Origin: Cryomorphaceae bacterium 1068
GTDB lineage: Bacteria; Bacteroidota; Bacteroidia; Flavobacteriales_D; Cryomorphaceae
Assembly: GCA_027214385.1 (NCBI GenBank)
Contig: JAPVXR010000005.1
Location: 62,001-126,000 of the forward strand
Direction: 5' to 3'
DNA length: 64,000 nt
In this document: positions 19,598 to 61,616 of the stretch, piece by piece
How positions within the stretch are numbered: position 1 is the stretch's first letter
Layout of the letters: each line of letters begins with the position of its first letter
Program-made: the position numbers and the translations under genes
The notes under the pieces: generated by a model
The model's database searches: none
What the model was told of the DNA's origin: nothing
Seen by the model: only the letters and a program-made list of their open reading frames with translations

Positions 19598-20071
19598 TTA
19601 TTTCTGCCCTACCAATTGGTGGCGTACTCGACTGAGGGCTTCAGGGGTGATACCCAGATAAGAGGCGATCATGCGCTGAGGAACGCGCTGAACGATGTCG
19701 GGATAGGTTTCTATAAAGTCAAGGTACCGATCCATGGCTGTGGCACTCATGAGCATGATCACCCTGCGCTGCAGTACAGAAAGACGGTTGATCAGACTCT
19801 GTGAATCCTTAGTATGTTTCATATCCTTTTCCCTCTCTATAAGCGTAGCATCTTCGAGCACATCTATAAAAAGTTGAGCCGGTATATCAGCAGGGTTGGT
19901 GTCGGCAATAATCCAACCTTCAGGTGCAAAGAGATAGATGTGCTCTTTTCCCTTTTCATCGATAGTATAGCTGCGTAGTAACCCCGTTTGCACCACGTAT
20001 ACTTTCGTATTCAGGTCGCCTATTCGTTGCAGGATTTCTCCTTTTTTTACGGTGATGGTTTTTGGGGGCAT
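19598..20071 (-). CDS. Crp/Fnr-family transcriptional regulator (short)
   Basis: A 157-residue regulator with a cyclic-nucleotide-type sensor barrel (residues 1-85, for example VYVVQTGLLRSY and HIYLFAPEGWI) and a C-terminal helix-turn-helix, VPQRMIASYLGITPEALSRVRHQL region, 129-152. It lacks about 30 residues of the usual N-terminus; the in-frame stop just upstream (shared with the end of the aspartyl protease gene) shows the start at 20071 is real. No FNR-type cysteine cluster is visible. It follows the protease gene by 12 bases. Candidate ligands and targets are unknown, but Crp/Fnr-type palindromes lie nearby at 19569 and 22245-22317. Confidence 0.88.
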   Translation of the reverse strand: MPPKTITVKKGEILQRIGDLNTKVYVVQTGLLRSYTIDEKGKEHIYLFAPEGWIIADTNPADIPAQLFIDVLEDATLIEREKDMKHTKDSQSLINRLSVLQRRVIMLMSATAMDRYLDFIETYPDIVQRVPQRMIASYLGITPEALSRVRHQLVGQK

Positions 20072-22244: not shown

Positions 22245-22262
22245 GTGTAACATTAGTCACAC
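22245..22262. promoter_or_regulatory. operator palindrome 1 (GTGTAAC...GTCACAC type)
   Basis: The sequence GTGTAACATTAGTCACAC is an 18-base inverted repeat with one mismatch per arm. It is the farthest upstream of three related sites and its centre is 28 bp from the next. Confidence 0.55.
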
Positions 22263-22274
22263 GGAATGCCCTTT

Positions 22275-22288
22275 GTAACGTGGGTTAC
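22275..22288. promoter_or_regulatory. operator palindrome 2 (GTAACgtggGTTAC)
   Basis: A perfect 5-4-5 inverted repeat, GTAAC and GTTAC around four bases, centred at 22281.5. It has the same arm sequence as the third site, 29 bp downstream. Confidence 0.65.
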
Positions 22289-22303
22289 CTGAAGCCGAGT
22301 TAA

Positions 22304-22317
22304 GTAACATTGGTTAC
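22304..22317. promoter_or_regulatory. operator palindrome 3 (GTAACattgGTTAC)
   Basis: A perfect 5-4-5 inverted repeat centred at 22310.5, flanked by AA and TAA. The centre is 36.5 bp from the last base of the downstream -7 element, so if transcription starts about five bases after the -7 element the site is centred near -41.5, the position used by class II Crp/Fnr activators. Confidence 0.65.
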
Positions 22318-22339
22318 TAAGCTCGGCGTTCTATGCCTC

Positions 22340-22347
22340 TACTTTTG
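22340..22347 (+). promoter_or_regulatory. -7 element of the RND operon promoter
   Basis: TACTTTTG is an exact match to the Bacteroidota consensus TAnnTTTG. No TTG is found at the usual -33 distance, which fits a promoter that needs an activator. The operon starts 76 bases downstream. Confidence 0.5.
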
Positions 22348-22422
22348 CGCTTTAATTCATAACCGAGGGCTTTTCAAAAGCATTCATTTGATCAGCCCGA
22401 AATCAAAATTCATTGTGAAAAT

Positions 22423-23733
22423 ATGAGGCATCGGATAGCATTGGTTTGGATCTTTCTCTACACGGGTTCAGGTCTTTTTTCTCAGGATACGGTTTCAATT
22501 TCAAACGCAAATGTCCTGGCGGAAATACAAGAGTCAAATCTCCAAGTAAGACTCGCTCAGAGTGATTTCGAATCGGCTCAGGCTGATTATCGTCAGTCGA
22601 ATGCCCTGTTCTTGCCCAATATCAGCGCTTCTTATTCGGCTATACTCACCACAAATCCATTGATGGCTTTTGGCTCAAAGCTGAATCAGGAAATATTGAC
22701 GCAAAGCGATTTTAATCCTGATTTGCTCAACGACCCCGATCAAATTGACAACTACGCCACGATGATTGAGGTACAGCAACCTCTCATTAACATGGATGGG
22801 CTTTTTGAACGACAAGCGGCAAAAAGTAAAATGGATGCCTATGAGCTGAAGGCTCAACGCACAGGCGAATACCTCAATCTGGAATCGCAAAAAGCCTACA
22901 TGCAATTGCAGATAGCCTATAAGGCCGTGGAAGTGCTGCGCAAAGCTGATGCTACTGCCGACGCCAACCTGAAGTTAGTACAAGACTATTACGATCAGGG
23001 CCTTTTGCAAAAGATGGATTTGCTCGATGTAGAAGTGCGCGTAAATCAAGTGAAAAACCAACTTCAGATGGCTCTGAGTAATTTGCAAAATGCCTCCGAC
23101 TACCTCGCTTTTCTTTTGAATCAAGATATGTCGGGTAAGGTATATCAACCAACGGAAGACTTGAACGCTGAGATGGAATCGTTGGAATCGATTGCGATGG
23201 TACCCGAATTCCGAAAGGATATTCTGGCAGTGGAAAAGTCAGCTGAAGCCTATGGCAAAATGCTCCAATCAGAAAAGATGGGCTTTCTACCGCGTCTCAA
23301 TGCATTCGGAAACTACCAAATATACGATGGCGATCCATTTGGATTTGGTGCCAATGGATACCTCGTCGGAGCCAGTTTGTCCTGGTCGCTTTTCGATGGG
23401 TACAAATCCATCGGGAAATACCAAAAGTCGAAAGTGGAATATGCCAAAGCTCAGACAGAAGCACAACAGTATCGCAACCAGAGTCAAATGGAGTTAAACC
23501 AGGCCAATCGTCAGCTTGAAGACGCTTCAAACAAACTCAACAATAGCCGGTTGGCCTTCGAGCAGGCCGAGGAAGCTTACCGCATCAGAAGCGATCGCTT
23601 CAAGGAAGGATTAATGAAAACTACGGATTTATTGATGTCTGAAACGCAGATGTTCAAAAAGGAACTCGAATACCTACAAGCAATTTTCGAATTTAATTAC
23701 AGCAAAAAGTACCTCGAATTTTTAACCCGCTAG
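22423..23733 (+). CDS. TolC-family outer-membrane efflux protein
   Basis: A 436-residue protein with a signal peptide (cleavage near LFSQ) and two OEP repeats made of long coiled-coil helices joined by short strands, for example NLQVRLAQSDFESAQADYRQ region and the second copy near residues 315-400. It forms the outer-membrane exit duct of a tripartite efflux pump. Length and repeat architecture are normal. It is the first gene of a five-gene operon and ends two bases before the adaptor frame opens. Confidence 0.9.
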   Translation: MRHRIALVWIFLYTGSGLFSQDTVSISNANVLAEIQESNLQVRLAQSDFESAQADYRQSNALFLPNISASYSAILTTNPLMAFGSKLNQEILTQSDFNPDLLNDPDQIDNYATMIEVQQPLINMDGLFERQAAKSKMDAYELKAQRTGEYLNLESQKAYMQLQIAYKAVEVLRKADATADANLKLVQDYYDQGLLQKMDLLDVEVRVNQVKNQLQMALSNLQNASDYLAFLLNQDMSGKVYQPTEDLNAEMESLESIAMVPEFRKDILAVEKSAEAYGKMLQSEKMGFLPRLNAFGNYQIYDGDPFGFGANGYLVGASLSWSLFDGYKSIGKYQKSKVEYAKAQTEAQQYRNQSQMELNQANRQLEDASNKLNNSRLAFEQAEEAYRIRSDRFKEGLMKTTDLLMSETQMFKKELEYLQAIFEFNYSKKYLEFLTR

Positions 23734-23747
23734 AAATGGTCAACACT

Positions 23748-24827
23748 ATGAAAAATATACACAAAAGCATTTTTGGTCTCAGTTTACTCTTGTTCGCTGC
23801 AGGATGCTCGCACGAGGCAGAAAAAAGCACGATTGAATCTCCATCCATAGCCGTAAAAGTTCAGAAGGCCTCAGGAGGTGAAAACACGCGATACATCTCG
23901 GCAACGGGACAAGTAGAAGCTACAAAAAGCGCCAATCTCAGCACCCGAATGATGGGCTACGTTCAAGACCTTCCGGTAAAGACGGGTCAAAATGTCAATA
24001 AAGGCGATTTGTTGATCAGCGTTTCCAACACGGATTTGCTGGCCAAAAAAGGACAGGTTGAAGCAGGCGTGATGCAAGCTGAGGCTGCCTTTAAAAATGC
24101 CGAAAGGGATTACGAACGCTTTCAGGCCTTGTTTGCCAAGAAGAGTGCTTCCCAAAAGGAGCTCGACGATATGACTACCCGCTACGAGATGGCCAAGGCC
24201 GGACTTGAAGTGGCCCGTCAAATGGAAAATGAAGTCAATGCACAGTTTTCGTACGCCAATATCAGAGCTCCCTTCAGCGGTGTGGTGATCAACACTTTCG
24301 TGAAAGAAGGAGATATGGCCAATCCGGGAATGCCCTTGGTGAGTATGGAAGCTCCTGGCAAAATGCAAATCGTGGCTATGGTTTCAGAGTCGGAAATAAA
24401 ATACGTTCGCGAAGGATTGGCAGCAGATATTTCGCTCAAATCCTTAGGCAAAACGATAGAAGGTACGGTGAGTGAAGTGAGCCTTTCGGCAAAAAACACG
24501 GGAGGCCAATATGTGGTGAAGATCGATATGGAATCAGATAGCTCCGTATTTGCCGGTATGTATGCCAATGTGCGAATCCATGCCAATAGAAAGAACAATC
24601 AAATAGAAAACGAAAGTGTGTGGATACCTGAAGCTGCCCTCGTTCACCAAGGACAACTCACGGGAGTCTACACCATTGGAAATGAAAATGCAGCCATTTT
24701 ACGCTGGCTCAGAACGGGTAGAAATAACGGTGAAGAGGTCGAGGTACTTTCGGGCTTAAAGTCTGATGAAACAATTATCGTCTCAGCCGAAGGTCGTTTA
24801 TACAATGGCGTCACAGTTACATTTTAA
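23748..24827 (+). CDS. RND efflux periplasmic adaptor, lipoprotein
   Basis: The start at 23748 is preferred over 23736 since it gives a tight lipoprotein signal (MKNIHKSIFGLSLLLF, lipobox AAGC). The 359-residue protein has the membrane-fusion layout: a lipoyl half-motif at GYVQDLPVKTGQNVNKGDLL, a coiled hairpin from about residue 95 to 160, the second lipoyl half AQFSYANIRAPFSGVV, then beta-barrel and membrane-proximal domains. It bridges the RND pump and TolC. It follows the TolC gene directly and is followed after 132 bases by the pump gene. Confidence 0.92.
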   Translation: MKNIHKSIFGLSLLLFAAGCSHEAEKSTIESPSIAVKVQKASGGENTRYISATGQVEATKSANLSTRMMGYVQDLPVKTGQNVNKGDLLISVSNTDLLAKKGQVEAGVMQAEAAFKNAERDYERFQALFAKKSASQKELDDMTTRYEMAKAGLEVARQMENEVNAQFSYANIRAPFSGVVINTFVKEGDMANPGMPLVSMEAPGKMQIVAMVSESEIKYVREGLAADISLKSLGKTIEGTVSEVSLSAKNTGGQYVVKIDMESDSSVFAGMYANVRIHANRKNNQIENESVWIPEAALVHQGQLTGVYTIGNENAAILRWLRTGRNNGEEVEVLSGLKSDETIIVSAEGRLYNGVTVTF

Positions 24828-24959: not shown

Positions 24960-27900
24960 ATGCAAGAAGGAATATCGGGTAAAATTGCCAACTTCTTTAT
25001 CAATTCCAAGCTGACCATTTTGCTGATGATCGGACTGATGGTGATCGGGGTGTACAGCTCTACGCTCATCCCTCGTGAGGAGGAACCGCAGATCGTAGTG
25101 CCCATGGCCGACGTGATGATAGGTTATCCGGGGGCCAATCCTCAGGAGGTGGAAAGTCGCGTAATCGTGCCCCTGGAGAAGGTGCTCGCCAATATTAAGG
25201 GTGTGGAACACCTGCATAGCTCGGCGATGAATGGAATGGGGATGATCATCGTTCAGTTTTACGTGGGAGAGGATGTGGAGCGTTCATACGTCAATCTGTA
25301 CGATGCATTGATGAAGAACCGCCACCTGTTTCCCGAGGGCGTTTTTGAACCTATTGTAAAAACCCGCTCCATTGACGATGTGCCGATGTTGGGGCTGACA
25401 TTGTGGAGTGAGAACTACGACGATTTTGAGATTCGGGAAATGGCTGAGGAGCTGGTGACTGAGATCAAAAAAGTAGAGGATGTGGCCATTACCAATATCA
25501 TCGGTGGGCGAAATCGCGAACTGCGCGTGGTGCTCGACAAGGATAAAATGGCCGAAAGCGGGATAGATGCATTGGGAATAATCGAGATGATCAAGGCCAA
25601 TAATTATAGCTCACAATCGGGTCGTTTTAATAGCGGCGACGAAGAGTTTTTGGTTACCACGGGGCAGTTTTTGGGCTCTGCCGAAGATGTGGGAAACATC
25701 GTGGTTGGCGTGCATCAAAATATGCCCGTTTACCTCAATCAAATTGCAAGCGTTGAAGACGGGCCAGAAGTGCCTGCCACTTACGTTTCTTTTGGCTACG
25801 GCTCTGCCCAAGAGGCACATGCAAATGCTCCGTCTGAATATCCTGCCGTGACCATTTCGGTGGCCAAGGTGAAGGGTGCAGATGCCATGAAAATCTCGGA
25901 AAAAATTCTGGATAGAGTAGAGGGCTTGAAGCTTTCGCTCATACCCGATGATCTCAATATTGAAGTAAGCCGTAACTATGGGGAAACGGCATCGCACAAG
26001 GTAAGCGAGCTTTTGCTACACCTTGGGGTGGCCATTTTGGCCGTTACCATTTTGGTGATGTTTGCCATGGGATGGCGCGGTGGTTTGGTGGTGTTTTTCT
26101 CTGTTCCACTCACCTTTGCGCTTACGCTGTTTAGCTACTACATGCTGGGATATACCCTAAACAGGATTACCCTTTTTGCCTTGGTTTTTGTGGTGGGAAT
26201 TGTGGTGGACGACAGCATCATTATCGCTGAGAACATGCACCGCCACTTCAAGATGAAGCGCCTGCCGTTTAAACAAGCCGCCATCTACGCCATCAACGAA
26301 GTAGGGAACCCTACGATACTGGCCACCTTTACCGTAATCGCAGCGATTTTGCCGATGGCTTTTGTGTCGGGAATGATGGGGCCTTATATGAGCCCAATGC
26401 CGATCGGTGCATCCATCGCCATGATATTATCGCTCTTTGTAGCATTGACCATTACGCCTTATCTGGGCTATTACCTCCTTCGCGAGAAAGATTCTCAAGA
26501 GCACAAAGAAGCGGAAGGAATGGAAACGGGCTGGATTTACCGTGTGTACAAAAAGATAGAGCAGCCAATGCTCGACAGTTCTTCCAAACGCTATATTATG
26601 CTTGGGATTACAGTGGTGTTATTGTTGGGTTCGGTAGGGATGTTTTTCACCAAATCGGTGGCTGTAAAAATGCTTCCATTCGATAACAAAAACGAATTTC
26701 AGGTGGTGATAGATATGCCCGAGGGAACCACGCTGGAACGCACGGCGGCTGTGACCAAGGAGATCGCTCAGTACCTGTCTACGGTTCCCGAGATTGTGAA
26801 TTACCAGAACTATGTGGGTACTTCTGCACCGATCACTTTCAACGGATTGGTAAGGCATTACGATATGCGTTCTACCAGCAATGTGGCCGACATACAAGTG
26901 AATCTCTTGCACAAAGGCGAGCGCTCCGATCAGAGTCACGACATTGCCAAGCGGGTGCGTCCGGAAGTGCAAAAAATCGCTGCCCGATACGGAGCGAACG
27001 TGAAGATTGTAGAGGTACCACCAGGGCCTCCCGTTCTTTCCACTTTGGTGGCTGAGATTTATGGCCCCGATTACGATGGGCAAATAAAAGTCGCTCAAAG
27101 TGTGATCGATATTCTGGACAGTACAGATGCCGTGGTAGATATCGACTGGCGAGTGGAAGCTCCACAAACCGAATACAGATTGGTGGTAGACAATGAGAAG
27201 GCCATGCTTAATGGAGTGGCTCCTGCACAAGTGGTGGGAAACATTACCTACGTACTCGGCGAGCATACGGTATCGAATTTATATGATGAGAACTCCAGCG
27301 ACCCTGTCGGAATCGTTCTGGCCCTGGATGATCGGGATAAAACCGATCTGCAGGCTATTCAGAACTTGCAAGTGAAAGGACAAGCGGGCAATATGGTGCC
27401 GATGAGTTCATTGGTGCGGATAGAGGAAAACACCTTGAAGCATTCCATTTACCGCAAGGATCAGAAAAGGGTGGTATACGTAATGGCCGATATGGCGGGA
27501 GGACTGGAAAGTCCGGTGTATGCCATTTTGGGGATGGAAGAGAAGTTGAAGGAAATTAAACTTCCGGAGGGCTACACCATGAATGAAATGTACATGGGCC
27601 AACCCGAAGACGAGCAAAACTACACCGTAAAGTGGGATGGCGAATGGCAGATTACGCTGGAAGTATTCCGAGACTTGGGAGCGGCCTTTTTGGTGGTGAT
27701 TATTGTGATTTACATGTTGATCGTCGGATGGTTCCAGAATTTTAAAACCCCTCTGGTGATGATGGTAGCTATTCCGCTGTCTTTGGTGGGAATTGTGTTG
27801 GGGCACTGGATTTTGGGTGCCTTCTTTACCGCGACTTCTTTTATCGGAATGATTGCCTTGGCGGGAGTAATGGTTCGGAACTCCGTGCTGCTCATCGACT

Positions 27901-28175
27901 TTATTGAAATCAGATTGAAAGAAGGCGTTCCGATGAAACGCGCGATAATCGATGCGGGTGCGGTGCGAACTACGCCTATTCTGCTCACCACGGGAGCTGT
28001 AGTGATCGGAGCTTCTATTATTCTGTTCGACCCGATTTTCCAAGGATTGGCCATTTCATTGGTGGCAGGAGCCATAGTGTCCACCTTGTTAACCCTGATT
28101 GTGGTTCCACTTATTTACTACATGACGGAGTATAAAAAATGGGAAAAGATTCACGCCGAAATGAAAGGTGAGTAA
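24960..28175 (+). CDS. RND-family efflux permease (HAE-like)
   Basis: A 1071-residue inner-membrane pump with 12 helices and two large periplasmic loops. The proton-relay aspartates are present as Asp417-Asp418 in GIVVDDSIIIAEN, equivalent to Asp407-Asp408 of AcrB. The C-terminal half repeats the fold, with GVMVRNSVLLIDFIEIRL in place of the second helix-4-like motif. The family moves drugs, dyes or other amphipathic compounds, or metals, using the proton gradient. The lack of the metal-binding Met or Glu signature that I would expect of CusA favours hydrophobic substrates, but the substrate is unknown. The adjacent PII-like gene is unusual for pure drug pumps. Confidence 0.93.
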   Translation: MQEGISGKIANFFINSKLTILLMIGLMVIGVYSSTLIPREEEPQIVVPMADVMIGYPGANPQEVESRVIVPLEKVLANIKGVEHLHSSAMNGMGMIIVQFYVGEDVERSYVNLYDALMKNRHLFPEGVFEPIVKTRSIDDVPMLGLTLWSENYDDFEIREMAEELVTEIKKVEDVAITNIIGGRNRELRVVLDKDKMAESGIDALGIIEMIKANNYSSQSGRFNSGDEEFLVTTGQFLGSAEDVGNIVVGVHQNMPVYLNQIASVEDGPEVPATYVSFGYGSAQEAHANAPSEYPAVTISVAKVKGADAMKISEKILDRVEGLKLSLIPDDLNIEVSRNYGETASHKVSELLLHLGVAILAVTILVMFAMGWRGGLVVFFSVPLTFALTLFSYYMLGYTLNRITLFALVFVVGIVVDDSIIIAENMHRHFKMKRLPFKQAAIYAINEVGNPTILATFTVIAAILPMAFVSGMMGPYMSPMPIGASIAMILSLFVALTITPYLGYYLLREKDSQEHKEAEGMETGWIYRVYKKIEQPMLDSSSKRYIMLGITVVLLLGSVGMFFTKSVAVKMLPFDNKNEFQVVIDMPEGTTLERTAAVTKEIAQYLSTVPEIVNYQNYVGTSAPITFNGLVRHYDMRSTSNVADIQVNLLHKGERSDQSHDIAKRVRPEVQKIAARYGANVKIVEVPPGPPVLSTLVAEIYGPDYDGQIKVAQSVIDILDSTDAVVDIDWRVEAPQTEYRLVVDNEKAMLNGVAPAQVVGNITYVLGEHTVSNLYDENSSDPVGIVLALDDRDKTDLQAIQNLQVKGQAGNMVPMSSLVRIEENTLKHSIYRKDQKRVVYVMADMAGGLESPVYAILGMEEKLKEIKLPEGYTMNEMYMGQPEDEQNYTVKWDGEWQITLEVFRDLGAAFLVVIIVIYMLIVGWFQNFKTPLVMMVAIPLSLVGIVLGHWILGAFFTATSFIGMIALAGVMVRNSVLLIDFIEIRLKEGVPMKRAIIDAGAVRTTPILLTTGAVVIGASIILFDPIFQGLAISLVAGAIVSTLLTLIVVPLIYYMTEYKKWEKIHAEMKGE

Positions 28176-28194
28176 GCAATTAAAACCAAAGGAT

Positions 28195-28509
28195 ATGAAG
28201 TTTTTAGTCATCACAGCCATTAGCGCATACGAGACGGATGTAAAGCACATCCTCAAGAAGTGCAAGGTTCAAACCTTTTCCTTTCACGAAATAGCGGGTT
28301 ATAAAACCCACGAAGAGGCCGAGGAAGTTCCGCATTGGTTTGCGGGGGATGAGTCACATACCACACAGTCTGTTATGTTTTATGTTTTTGCTTCCGCAGA
28401 AATGGCTGATTGTGTTTTCAAGGAAGTAAATCACGCGAATTCCAAACAAGAATTTGAGTCAAAAATTCACCTTGTTTCACTCAATGTGGAGCAGTCAAAT
28501 ATCCAATAG
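28195..28509 (+). CDS. putative PII-like protein linked to RND pump
   Basis: I placed the start at the ATG at 28195, preceded by AAAGGAT; a GTG at 28168 inside the end of the pump gene is possible but weaker. The 104-residue soluble protein has a ferredoxin-like pattern: MKFLVITAISAYETDVKHIL, a loop with HEIAGYK, then VMFYVFASAEMADCVFKEV. This recalls small PII-like proteins (PII-NG/CutA-like) that sit in RND metal-efflux operons. Classical PII contacts are not recognisable, so the ligand and the partner are unknown. It overlaps the operon and is followed three bases later by the DUF2892 gene. Confidence 0.65.
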   Translation: MKFLVITAISAYETDVKHILKKCKVQTFSFHEIAGYKTHEEAEEVPHWFAGDESHTTQSVMFYVFASAEMADCVFKEVNHANSKQEFESKIHLVSLNVEQSNIQ

Positions 28510-28512
28510 ATC

Positions 28513-28716
28513 ATGATCAATCGAATCGTTCACGCCGTAGCTGGCAGTTTTATTCTGATAAGTTTAATTCTGGCCATTTCCGTTAATATCAATTGGCTTT
28601 GGTTTACCGCTTTTGTAGGAGCCAATTTGCTTCAATCTTCATTTACCCAATGGTGCTTGATGGAAAAGATTTTGAAGGGAATCGGAGTAAAAGATACACC
28701 AAGAGGAAGCCTGTAA
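28513..28716 (+). CDS. DUF2892-like small membrane protein
   Basis: A 67-residue protein with two membrane helices and a CLMEKILKGIGV tail, similar to the YgaP-type DUF2892 family. It is the last gene of the efflux operon, three bases after the PII-like gene. Its role is unknown. A rho-independent terminator lies about 90 bases downstream. Confidence 0.8.
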   Translation: MINRIVHAVAGSFILISLILAISVNINWLWFTAFVGANLLQSSFTQWCLMEKILKGIGVKDTPRGSL

Positions 28717-29085
28717 TCGTAAAAGAGTGCACTGACTAAACCCATTAAGATGAAGGGTGGAGCTTAAACTACTTTGAGATTTCCAGCATCATATTTCGAA
28801 GAGTACCTGTCTTTCCCATCGGAAGGGCAGGTTTTTTTTTGGAGTGATGAGGTCGGTGCCTTCGAGTGCTATCAAATCAAATTAATCTGCCACACTCCAC
28901 CTGATTCTTCCACTTTAGAAGGGGAATGATCTCTGAGAACCGATGATCATAAAGTTGATCGGAATCTTCCAGTCTTCCAATAATCTGTTGATGAAAATTA
29001 ATTTTATCAATCGACCTTTTTCTAAAATTCATATTTTACAGGCCTAATTGACTATAAACCATTATTAAACCTAATCATTACAACT
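28717..29085. other. intergenic region between efflux operon and aquaporin gene
   Basis: A 369-base gap holding the operon terminator at 28805-28840 and, further right, the promoter of aqpZ. No exact TAnnTTTG was found before aqpZ. No gene was seen. Confidence 0.5.
28805..28840 (+). terminator. rho-independent terminator of the RND operon
   Basis: A 12-base stem, ACCTGTCTTTCC pairing with GGAAGGGCAGGT through two G-T wobbles, has a CATC loop and is followed by a run of nine T. Confidence 0.85.
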
Positions 29086-58892: not shown

Positions 58893-60284
58893 ATGAATCT
58901 GATCCAAGAATTTCGAAAGAACGAGTCGCTGCAGGATATAGCCGATAAGCATCTGCAATTCATGGTCGATCATGGAGAGGTAAGAAGCTACAAGAAAGGC
59001 GACTTTATTTTCAAGGCAGGAGATTCTGCAGACGAACTTCTTTACATCTTAAGTGGCCGTTTCCGATTGATCCTTACTCAGAATGGCGAACAGCGAGAAG
59101 TTGCAATGATGACGCAATACGATATTTCAGGCGTGTTGCCATACAGTCGAATGACCCATGCGCAAGGTGCTGCAGAATGCCGTGAAGATGCTGAGATTTT
59201 TGCCATGGATAGAAAACACTTTCGCGAAATGATTGTGAACCATGAACCGCTCGCCGAAGCCTTGGTTCATCATATGGCTTCGCGTATTCGGAGTTTTACC
59301 AAGTTGCGTATGCAAGATGAAAAGCTGATTTCTTTGGGAAAGCTCTCGGCAGGGCTTGCCCATGAACTGAATAACCCTGCCAGTGCCATGGTGCGTAGCT
59401 CAGAGGAATTGTCCAAGCATCTCAAGCTATTGCCCGATGGATTTAAGCAGGTGATGAAGTCAAACCTCGATCCTGACAAGGTTGATAAAGTGAATGATTG
59501 GCTTTTTTCTATTCTAGATCATGAACGCCCATCATTGACCCTGATGGAAAGAAATGATCGAGAAGATGAAGTTTCAGATCTTTTGGAAGAGTATGGCATA
59601 GACGATCCTTTTGAGCTTTCAGAAGAATGCGTGGATTATGGCCTGAGCGGCGATGATATTGAAAGCCTTCATGAACTCACCGGGGAAGGTGATTTTCACA
59701 CAGTCATTCATTGGGTCGTCAATAACTTGAGCACCGAACGAATGGTGGAAGAGATTCATACGTCTGCTGAGCGCATATCGACCTTGATTGGAAGTATCAA
59801 AGAGTACAGTCACATGGATCGGAGCCAAGACAGGCAGGATGTTGACATCAACTCTGGCTTAAAGAGCACTATTACGATGTTGCGTCACAAGGCGAAGAAT
59901 GCGCAAATAGAAATAGAAGAAGCCTATTGCGACGGTATTCCTCACCTTTCGGGAATGCCGGGAGAATTGAATCAAGTTTGGACCAATATCATCGACAATG
60001 CGCTCGATGCCATGGAGGGAGGTGGTACCCTGCGTATTCAAACCGATTGGGTTGAACCCAATGTTTGTATTAAAATTTCCGATACCGGTTCGGGGATCCC
60101 TGAAGAAATTCAAAGCCAAATCTTTGATCCATTCTTTACCACAAAATCTGTCGGTAAAGGAACAGGGTTGGGCTTGGACATTGTCAATAAAATTGTGGCT
60201 CGGCATAGTGGCCGAATTGATTTAAAATCAAAACCCGGGCACACCGAATTTACCATAACCTTACCTGCAGTAGAAGCGATATAG
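58893..60284 (+). CDS. sensor histidine kinase with cyclic-nucleotide-binding domain
   Basis: A 463-residue cytoplasmic kinase. Residues 1-130 form a cNMP-binding-type barrel (KAGDSADELLYILSGRFRLI), followed by a HisKA helix with His157 in GKLSAGLAHELNNPAS, a middle acidic linker (residues about 195-275) and a HATPase domain with N box NIIDNALDAM, G1 DTGSGIP and G2 GKGTGLGLDIV. It should sense a ligand and phosphorylate the response-regulator/flavoprotein encoded next. The stop TAG directly abuts the ATG of that gene, so they are one operon. Confidence 0.93.
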   Translation: MNLIQEFRKNESLQDIADKHLQFMVDHGEVRSYKKGDFIFKAGDSADELLYILSGRFRLILTQNGEQREVAMMTQYDISGVLPYSRMTHAQGAAECREDAEIFAMDRKHFREMIVNHEPLAEALVHHMASRIRSFTKLRMQDEKLISLGKLSAGLAHELNNPASAMVRSSEELSKHLKLLPDGFKQVMKSNLDPDKVDKVNDWLFSILDHERPSLTLMERNDREDEVSDLLEEYGIDDPFELSEECVDYGLSGDDIESLHELTGEGDFHTVIHWVVNNLSTERMVEEIHTSAERISTLIGSIKEYSHMDRSQDRQDVDINSGLKSTITMLRHKAKNAQIEIEEAYCDGIPHLSGMPGELNQVWTNIIDNALDAMEGGGTLRIQTDWVEPNVCIKISDTGSGIPEEIQSQIFDPFFTTKSVGKGTGLGLDIVNKIVARHSGRIDLKSKPGHTEFTITLPAVEAI

Positions 60285-61616
60285 ATGGCAAAGCAACCCT
60301 TGATTATAGTAGTGGATGACGACCCTCAGGTCTTGAGGGCTGTTTCGAGAGATTTGAAAAAGCAATACCGCAAAGAGTACCGCATCATTAGCACGGACAG
60401 TGCCAATGAAGCACTCGACTCTTTACTCGATTTAAAAAAGAAAGGAGATGAAGTGGCTCTTTTTCTCAGCGATCAACGCATGCCCGAAATGCCCGGAGTC
60501 GACTATTTGGAAAAAGCCGCCGAGATTTTCCCCGGAGCTAGGCGAGTTTTATTAACTGCCTACAGCGATACCGACGCGGCCATAAAGGCGATTAACGAAG
60601 TTCAGCTCGACTACTACCTGATGAAACCATGGGACCCTCCCGAAGAAAAACTCTATCCGGTCATTACGGATCAGTTGGAAGAATGGAAGGCAAACAACAG
60701 TGCGACCGTCGGTGGTCTTCGTTTGTTGGGCTATCAATATTCTCCCAAGTCGCATAGCGTTAAGGATTTCCTTTCGGGAAATTTATTTCCCTACAAATGG
60801 TTGGATGTCGAAAACGACCCCGCTGCCGCGGAAACGATGATGCTTCACGGCATCGATCACAAGACCTTGCCCGCGGTGATTTTTGAAGATGGCGAGGTCA
60901 TTCTTGGAGATGACCTTAGTCCAATTGCCAAGAAGCTTGGGCTGCAGCCTACTGCTCAGTCTGAGATGTACGACGTGGCCATTATCGGAGCGGGGCCTGC
61001 GGGACTCGCGGCAGGTGTCTACGGAGGTAGCGAAGGGTTGAATACCGCATTGATTGAAAAACGAGCTCCGGGCGGACAGGCGGGTACAAGTTCTCGAATT
61101 GAGAATTACCTCGGATTTCCAAATGGCTTAAGTGGAGCAGATTTGAGTCGCAGAGCTATTTCGCAAGCTACCCGATTCGGAATTGACTTTTTAGTTCCAC
61201 AGGCGGTAGATTCTATAGAATTCAATTCGGGCTACAAATGCTTAACTATGGCCGATGGAACTCATTTACACACCCATGCGGTGATCATAACCACGGGGGT
61301 ATCTTATAGAATGCTCGAGTCTACAGGACTTCAGGATTTTACGGGTGCGGGTGTTTATTACGGTGCCGCGACTACTGAGGCTACCTCCTGCAAGAACAAA
61401 GACGTTTTCGTGGTCGGTGGTGGAAACTCAGCTGGACAAGGAGCCGTTTATTTGAGCAATTATGCCAAGCATGTTCACATCTTACTTCGGCGGGATAATC
61501 TGCATGATACCATGTCCAGCTATTTAATCGATCAGATTGACTCAATCGACAATATCACGGTAGAGCCTTTCCGAGAAGTGGTAAAGGCCACGGGTGATGA
61601 CCGCCTGCAAAAATAG
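60285..61616 (+). CDS. response regulator fused to thioredoxin-reductase-like flavoprotein, cut by an amber codon
   Basis: The open frame encodes 443 residues. Residues 1-125 are a receiver domain (phospho-acceptor Asp63 in LFLSDQRMP, Thr91, Lys114), 126-225 a glutaredoxin-like region without CxxC, and from Asp230 an FAD-binding fold with IIGAGPAG and a NADPH-binding VVGGGNSAGQG. The CxxC of true thioredoxin reductase is absent (TEATSCKNKDV instead), so it is more likely a redox-sensing or other flavin output than thioredoxin reductase. The TAG at 61614-61616 falls inside the fold; the reading frame continues beyond with the remaining FAD-binding end (see next entry). Confidence 0.85.
   Translation: MAKQPLIIVVDDDPQVLRAVSRDLKKQYRKEYRIISTDSANEALDSLLDLKKKGDEVALFLSDQRMPEMPGVDYLEKAAEIFPGARRVLLTAYSDTDAAIKAINEVQLDYYLMKPWDPPEEKLYPVITDQLEEWKANNSATVGGLRLLGYQYSPKSHSVKDFLSGNLFPYKWLDVENDPAAAETMMLHGIDHKTLPAVIFEDGEVILGDDLSPIAKKLGLQPTAQSEMYDVAIIGAGPAGLAAGVYGGSEGLNTALIEKRAPGGQAGTSSRIENYLGFPNGLSGADLSRRAISQATRFGIDFLVPQAVDSIEFNSGYKCLTMADGTHLHTHAVIITTGVSYRMLESTGLQDFTGAGVYYGAATTEATSCKNKDVFVVGGGNSAGQGAVYLSNYAKHVHILLRRDNLHDTMSSYLIDQIDSIDNITVEPFREVVKATGDDRLQK

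Follow-up and report, generated by a model that had tools for sequence, protein, structure and literature searches.

The efflux operon encoded in the window, i.e. the whole 64-kb stretch of DNA analysed here, is preceded by a palindrome that is probably a class II operator, from which a Crp/Fnr-type protein called CrpS would activate the pump genes within a sulfide/persulfide regulon. This regulon is not visible from the window alone. It emerges from the sequence architecture shared by the promoters of sulfur genes and RND operons in related genomes.

Predicted operators and promoter upstream of the efflux operon

The operon, on the forward strand, starts with the gene of a TolC-type outer membrane efflux protein (22423-23733; Pfam OEP), followed by those of an RND periplasmic adaptor (MFP; 23736-24827; Pfam HlyD_D23, and NCBIfam RND_mfp above the cut-off) and an RND permease (24960-28175). 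The latter matches Pfam ACR_tran (3e-153) and scores under every NCBIfam permease cut-off. Together, the OEP, adaptor and ACR_tran permease assignments define an RND tripartite efflux operon. The next gene (28168-28509) codes for a small protein with no Pfam or NCBIfam match, P-II-like by eye only; most orthologous loci have it at the same position. The last one codes for a YgaP-like transmembrane protein (28513-28716; PF11127) and likewise stands last in nearly all orthologous operons. A terminator-like hairpin, CCTGTCTTTCCCATCGGAAGGGCAGG followed by a T run, can be read at 28805-28840 on the same strand. Among the relatives that have the operon, the two nearest are G005 (to which the named record L134, Cryomorpha ignava, corresponds) and G002; their TolC orthologues are 83% and 51% identical, respectively, and their permease orthologues 89% and 71%. 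Elsewhere in the window, inspection of the translations by eye revealed a cyclic-nucleotide-binding domain fused to a histidine-kinase-like region (58893-60284) and, adjoining it, a response-regulator/thioredoxin-reductase-like fusion (60285-61616).

As described in the initial annotation, three inverted repeats lie ahead of this operon on the forward strand, with start-to-start spacings of 28 and 29 bp. They are palindrome 1 (GTGTAACATTAGTCACAC, GTGTAAC-ATTA-GTCACAC, with the core GTAACATTAGTCAC at 22247-22260), palindrome 2 (GTAACGTGGGTTAC, 22275-22288) and palindrome 3 (GTAACATTGGTTAC, 22304-22317). All three read GTRAC-N4-GTYAC, with a 14-bp core of the size bound by a Crp/Fnr dimer. With at most one mismatch, GTAACN4GTTAC has three matches in the window, just these palindromes, for 0.86 expected. 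Three palindromes inside 72 bp were found in none of 200 first-order Markov shuffles of the window, and two palindromes within such a distance in one of 200. Palindrome 3 is also the sole place in the window that matches all 16 positions of a pattern combining the palindrome, a gap of 21-23 nt and the Bacteroidota -7 element TAnnTTTG. It is enclosed in a 34-bp inverted repeat (22294-22327; GCCGAGTTAAGTAAC-ATTG-GTTACTAAGCTCGGC), the outer GCCGAG/CTCGGC arms of which are not present in G005 or G002.

The -7 element itself, TACTTTTG (22340-22347, forward strand), follows palindrome 3 after 22 nt. The centre of palindrome 3 (22310.5) lies 36.5 bp before the end of this element, and a -33 partner is missing, the nearest upstream TTG (22310-22312) leaving 27 bp to TACTTTTG; the earlier reading was correct on both points. 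Relative to the transcription starts mapped in Flavobacterium psychrophilum, TAnnTTTG spans -12 to -5; leaderless mRNAs make up 5.5% of the total in this bacterium (PMC9723704). This placement puts the predicted +1 at 22352 on the forward strand and thus the centre of palindrome 3 at -41.5; with the same +1, those of palindromes 2 and 1 are at -70.5 and -98.5. When 144 promoters of the same pattern are aligned, a purine occupies +1 in 86% of them, and a TTG is found at the -33 place in eight. Start codons (ATG or GTG) located exactly 4 nt after TAnnTTTG form an isolated peak of 13 regulon genes (e.g. L104, L107, L111 and L112), which suggests that their mRNAs are leaderless and begin at +1. 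The purine peak and these putative leaderless genes agree with the predicted position of the start.

Class II activation by Crp/Fnr proteins is a textbook mechanism. The initial annotation had proposed this geometry for the efflux operon, and the conserved 22-nt spacing, the centre at -41.5, the purine at +1 and the linked Crp/Fnr gene all bear it out. Crp/Fnr-type class II activation of the operon is therefore a strongly supported prediction.

Conservation of palindrome 3 and genes with the same promoter architecture

In G005 and in G002, a single palindrome is retained. It occupies the position of palindrome 3, with a 22-nt gap to TAnTTTTG, in flanking DNA that has diverged. Palindromes 1 and 2 have no counterpart at the orthologous loci of these two nearest relatives, and only two of the other orthologous loci showed a further palindrome close to the RND promoter. 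The expectation of conserved triple sites thus held for palindrome 3, which is conserved in relatives, but the triple arrangement is local to the window genome. Palindromes 1 and 2 are predicted accessory sites peculiar to that genome and probably represent a lineage-specific addition that raises occupancy or output. As palindrome 2 is near the class I register and palindrome 1 is not, our guess is that they may raise the local occupancy or contact the alpha subunit of the polymerase.

We collected 80 orthologous RND-permease loci from named genomes, mostly of Flavobacteriaceae, with records labelled Cyclobacteriaceae, Chryseolinea, Ferruginibacter and others. The upstream region was present for 70 of them and was scored over the 16 positions of the pattern (palindrome, gap of 21-23 nt, TAnnTTTG). 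Forty-nine of the 70 operons score 16/16 and 14 score 15/16 (i.e. 63 score 15-16), whereas the best of 1400 Markov-shuffled controls scored 14/16 and none reached 15. The gap is 22 nt in nearly all orthologous operons. Palindrome 3 is thus predicted to be an ancient, precisely placed activator site. Genes for persulfide dioxygenase, SQR, YeeE/DUF6691, rhodanese and CrpS adjoin orthologous RND operons. One contig labelled as a Bifidobacterium breve MAG (L140, CALPUN020000106.1) looks mis-binned; it contains a persulfide dioxygenase gene together with an RND operon that is Flavobacteriia-like (77% identical).

The palindrome alone is a poor search pattern. In the window genome (G000), it yielded 13 matches without promoter context, many of them inside genes, versus 37 for the reversed control; hence, specificity comes only from its combination with a TAnnTTTG 22 nt further on. 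Allowing two mismatches gave 17 matches in the same genome for 15 in the control, and only matches with zero or one mismatch were therefore used. In contrast, palindrome-N22-TAnnTTTG occurs in 83 of the 199 genomes of the order, at about 150 places among the matches listed. The reversed pattern gave four matches in the 199 genomes, and a gap of 17 nt, half a helical turn off, gave one.

We sorted by family the genes that follow 153 distinct sites (gap of 21-23 nt) at the loci sampled, and the number of families is small. The TolC gene of the RND operon comes after 50 of them, most at loci that had been fetched deliberately. The other families include persulfide dioxygenase/rhodanese (36 sites), DUF983 (18), TauE (9) and thioredoxin (7), with YeeE, DsrE, molybdopterin oxidoreductases and an SulP-like transporter as singles or pairs. 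Thus, the RND operon aside, the site-bearing genes are overwhelmingly sulfur genes, coding for persulfide dioxygenase, TauE, thioredoxin, rhodanese, YeeE, SQR and DsrE, in addition to DUF983. The proteins of the latter group, identified by eye as DUF983-like zinc-ribbon membrane proteins (e.g. L111, L112, L118, L119, L123 and L132), are outnumbered as targets only by persulfide dioxygenase and the RND operon, which ties this family to sulfide/persulfide handling.

In the window genome, sites precede genes for SQR, a peroxiredoxin and a second persulfide dioxygenase, and a molybdopterin oxidoreductase/rhodanese operon. The TauE-persulfide dioxygenase operon beside the CrpS gene has a weak site (14/16, two mismatches), so that its assignment rests on position. 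In G005, sites precede genes for a peroxiredoxin and persulfide dioxygenase, a DoxX-DsrE-nucleotidase-like group, an SQR-like flavoprotein and DsrE. The shared architecture in front of sulfur genes indicates that the RND operon is one member of a sulfide/persulfide gene set. As predicted from these sites, this set spans the Flavobacteriales and some other Bacteroidota.

CrpS as the probable regulator, and alternative candidates

CrpS is the Crp/Fnr protein encoded in the TauE-persulfide dioxygenase cluster of G000, G002, G003 and G005. Its domains above the cut-off (PF00027, PF13545 and PF00325) correspond to a cNMP-binding fold and a Crp helix-turn-helix. In the window genome, the CrpS gene (G000:C10:76688-77329) adjoins those of TauE and persulfide dioxygenase. 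A gene for a CrpS paralogue (G000:C6:123086-123703; L068 8987-9595) has a perfect site 382 nt upstream, with a small YgaP-like gene in between. CrpS was detected in 79 of the 83 genomes with the site and in 59 of the 116 without (Fisher p 1e-12, a value that ignores the kinship of the genomes); these 59 thus have CrpS and no strict site, among the 199. Three of the four site-bearing genomes in which CrpS was not detected are 82-88% complete, and the fourth, G044, is 99% complete. Among the 150 sites listed, 42 are no more than 3.5 kb from a CrpS gene, typically directly 3' of its stop codon or ~450 bp 5' of its start, and CrpS adjoins the RND operon in several of the 80 orthologous loci. CrpS is most likely the cognate regulator, predicted to bind these sites.

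CrpS proteins were aligned with a CRP sequence. They keep an Arg at the position of CRP Arg180 and have Glu or Val as residue 181, whereas the cAMP-contacting Glu72 and Arg82 of CRP are replaced; CrpS thus does not have the hallmarks of a cAMP-CRP. The corresponding loop contains an invariant Cys and, in most cases, another one six residues further along. The loss of Glu72 and Arg82 together with the invariant Cys makes a thiol (per)sulfidation trigger plausible. The structure model of CrpS (pLDDT 79, pTM 0.55) was set aside because its confidence is low exactly around the cysteines. Residues 180 and 181 have been correlated with the operator motif in Crp/Fnr proteins (Rodionov et al. 2005, PMC1274295). 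For the Arg180/Glu181 pair of Cryomorphaceae CrpS, this correlation predicts TGTGAC halves, yet two of the three sites in the window are pure GTAAC.

The same correlation leaves room for another Crp/Fnr paralogue as the protein that binds the sites, for instance the widespread Arg-Gln type (G000:C18:39342), since Arg180/Gln181 is also compatible with GTAAC; NssR, with A180/Q181, binds TTAAC (PMC1274295). However, the Arg-Gln paralogue was not detected in G005, which carries the sites, and it does occur in G001, a genome devoid of both the sites and the RND operon. We consider this explanation improbable, and the Arg-Gln paralogue was rejected as the regulator because of its lack of detection in the site-bearing G005.

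Palindromes 2 and 3 match exactly the HcpR2 operator consensus, GTAACnnnnGTTAC, predicted for Clostridia, Bacteroides, Thermotogales and Treponema (PMC1274295); the site motif is therefore already published for another regulator. The sites might thus belong to an HcpR-type regulon that responds to NO or nitrosative stress. The targets are sulfur genes, however, and no hybrid cluster protein gene (hcp; PF03063) was found in G000, G005 or G002, nor any hcp among the sampled regulon targets. In addition, HcpR2 has Pro181, where CrpS has Glu or Val. A function as an HcpR regulon is very unlikely, and it was rejected since hcp is absent from these three genomes.

Another view is that the palindromes are repressor operators, with a dimer at -41.5 that blocks RNA polymerase until a signal releases it. 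Such a dimer would overlap the -33 region, and several persulfide regulators, CstR, SqrR and BigR, are repressors (PMC9774590; PMC7315123). Nevertheless, the exact 22-nt spacing and the lack of a -33 element in 136 of the 144 promoters fit activation better, because activation needs a fixed geometry. We thus assign repression a very low probability.

Finally, the Crp/Fnr protein encoded at 19598-20071, proposed in the initial annotation, has a cNMP-binding domain and lies 2.2 kb from the operon, but it is most unlikely to be the activator and was rejected, as its recognition helix (GITPEALSR) has a Pro in place of the DNA-contacting Arg180, it has no homologue near any of the 80 orthologous RND operons and its genomic neighbours are outside the regulon.

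Proposed mechanism and comparison with known systems

CrpS thus remains the best candidate. From the geometry of the promoter, a CrpS dimer centred at -41.5 would replace the missing -33 contact and hold RNA polymerase on the TAnnTTTG -7 box, and we infer that the bound dimer touches the polymerase. Encoded elsewhere in the genome, CrpS would thereby activate genes for persulfide dioxygenases, SQR, TauE, YeeE, rhodanese, thioredoxin and peroxiredoxin and the TolC-MFP-RND-YgaP operon, plausibly when triggered by thiol (per)sulfidation. More tentatively, and with somewhat less than even confidence, we propose a regulon that extends over Flavobacteriales and some other Bacteroidota, whose strictly spaced class II promoters are driven by a Crp/Fnr activator that carries a cysteine and responds to sulfide/persulfide rather than to cAMP. 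The RND pump would be a core member and would export a sulfur species such as thiosulfate, sulfite, polysulfide or a thiol persulfide. Here we infer the signal, the sensing chemistry and the pump substrate.

In the open-access papers searched, we found no Crp/Fnr-type sulfur regulator described for Bacteroidota, nor any sulfide/persulfide regulon under such control that includes an RND pump. A review of sulfur sensing published in 2022 names CstR, SqrR and FisR, without mention of Fnr or of 'Bacteroid-' (PMC9774590). The regulators and operators of Bacteroidota are poorly known, and their promoters differ from the E. coli model. A single 44-bp pattern, nearly free of false positives, picks out the predicted regulon in dozens of genera and points to its likely regulator. 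It also places a conserved RND pump in the physiological context of sulfide/persulfide handling and makes the functions of DUF983 and of the YgaP-like protein testable. If CrpS senses persulfide, a Crp/Fnr-type activator would join the CsoR-, ArsR- and Fis-type sulfur sensors.

The proposed promoter resembles the class II promoters of E. coli CRP (e.g. galP1), with a dimer at -41.5, weak or absent -35 contact and an operator of 16 bp (TGTRACN4GTYACA here, TGTGAN6TCACA for CRP). In contrast with the CRP system, the promoter has the TAnnTTTG element typical of Bacteroidota, the halves are mostly GTAAC and the putative regulator is devoid of the residues that contact cAMP. The HcpR2 regulon (PMC1274295) has the same consensus and also a Crp/Fnr regulator devoid of the FNR cysteine cluster, but in our case the targets are sulfide/persulfide genes and the RND pump rather than hcp, and residue 181 is not Pro. 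The regulons of FisR and CstR/BigR/SqrR likewise comprise genes for SQR, persulfide dioxygenase, TauE and YeeE (e.g. FisR/BigR of Acinetobacter, PMC7315123). However, those regulators are a sigma-54 activator and CsoR- or ArsR-type repressors, whereas we propose a Crp/Fnr-type activator, with the RND operon as a core member of its regulon. Lastly, the pump operon resembles those of AcrAB-TolC, MdtABC and MexAB in that TolC, adaptor and ACR_tran permease genes are found in one operon, and it differs from them by its two small conserved 3' genes and by its link to sulfide/persulfide genes.
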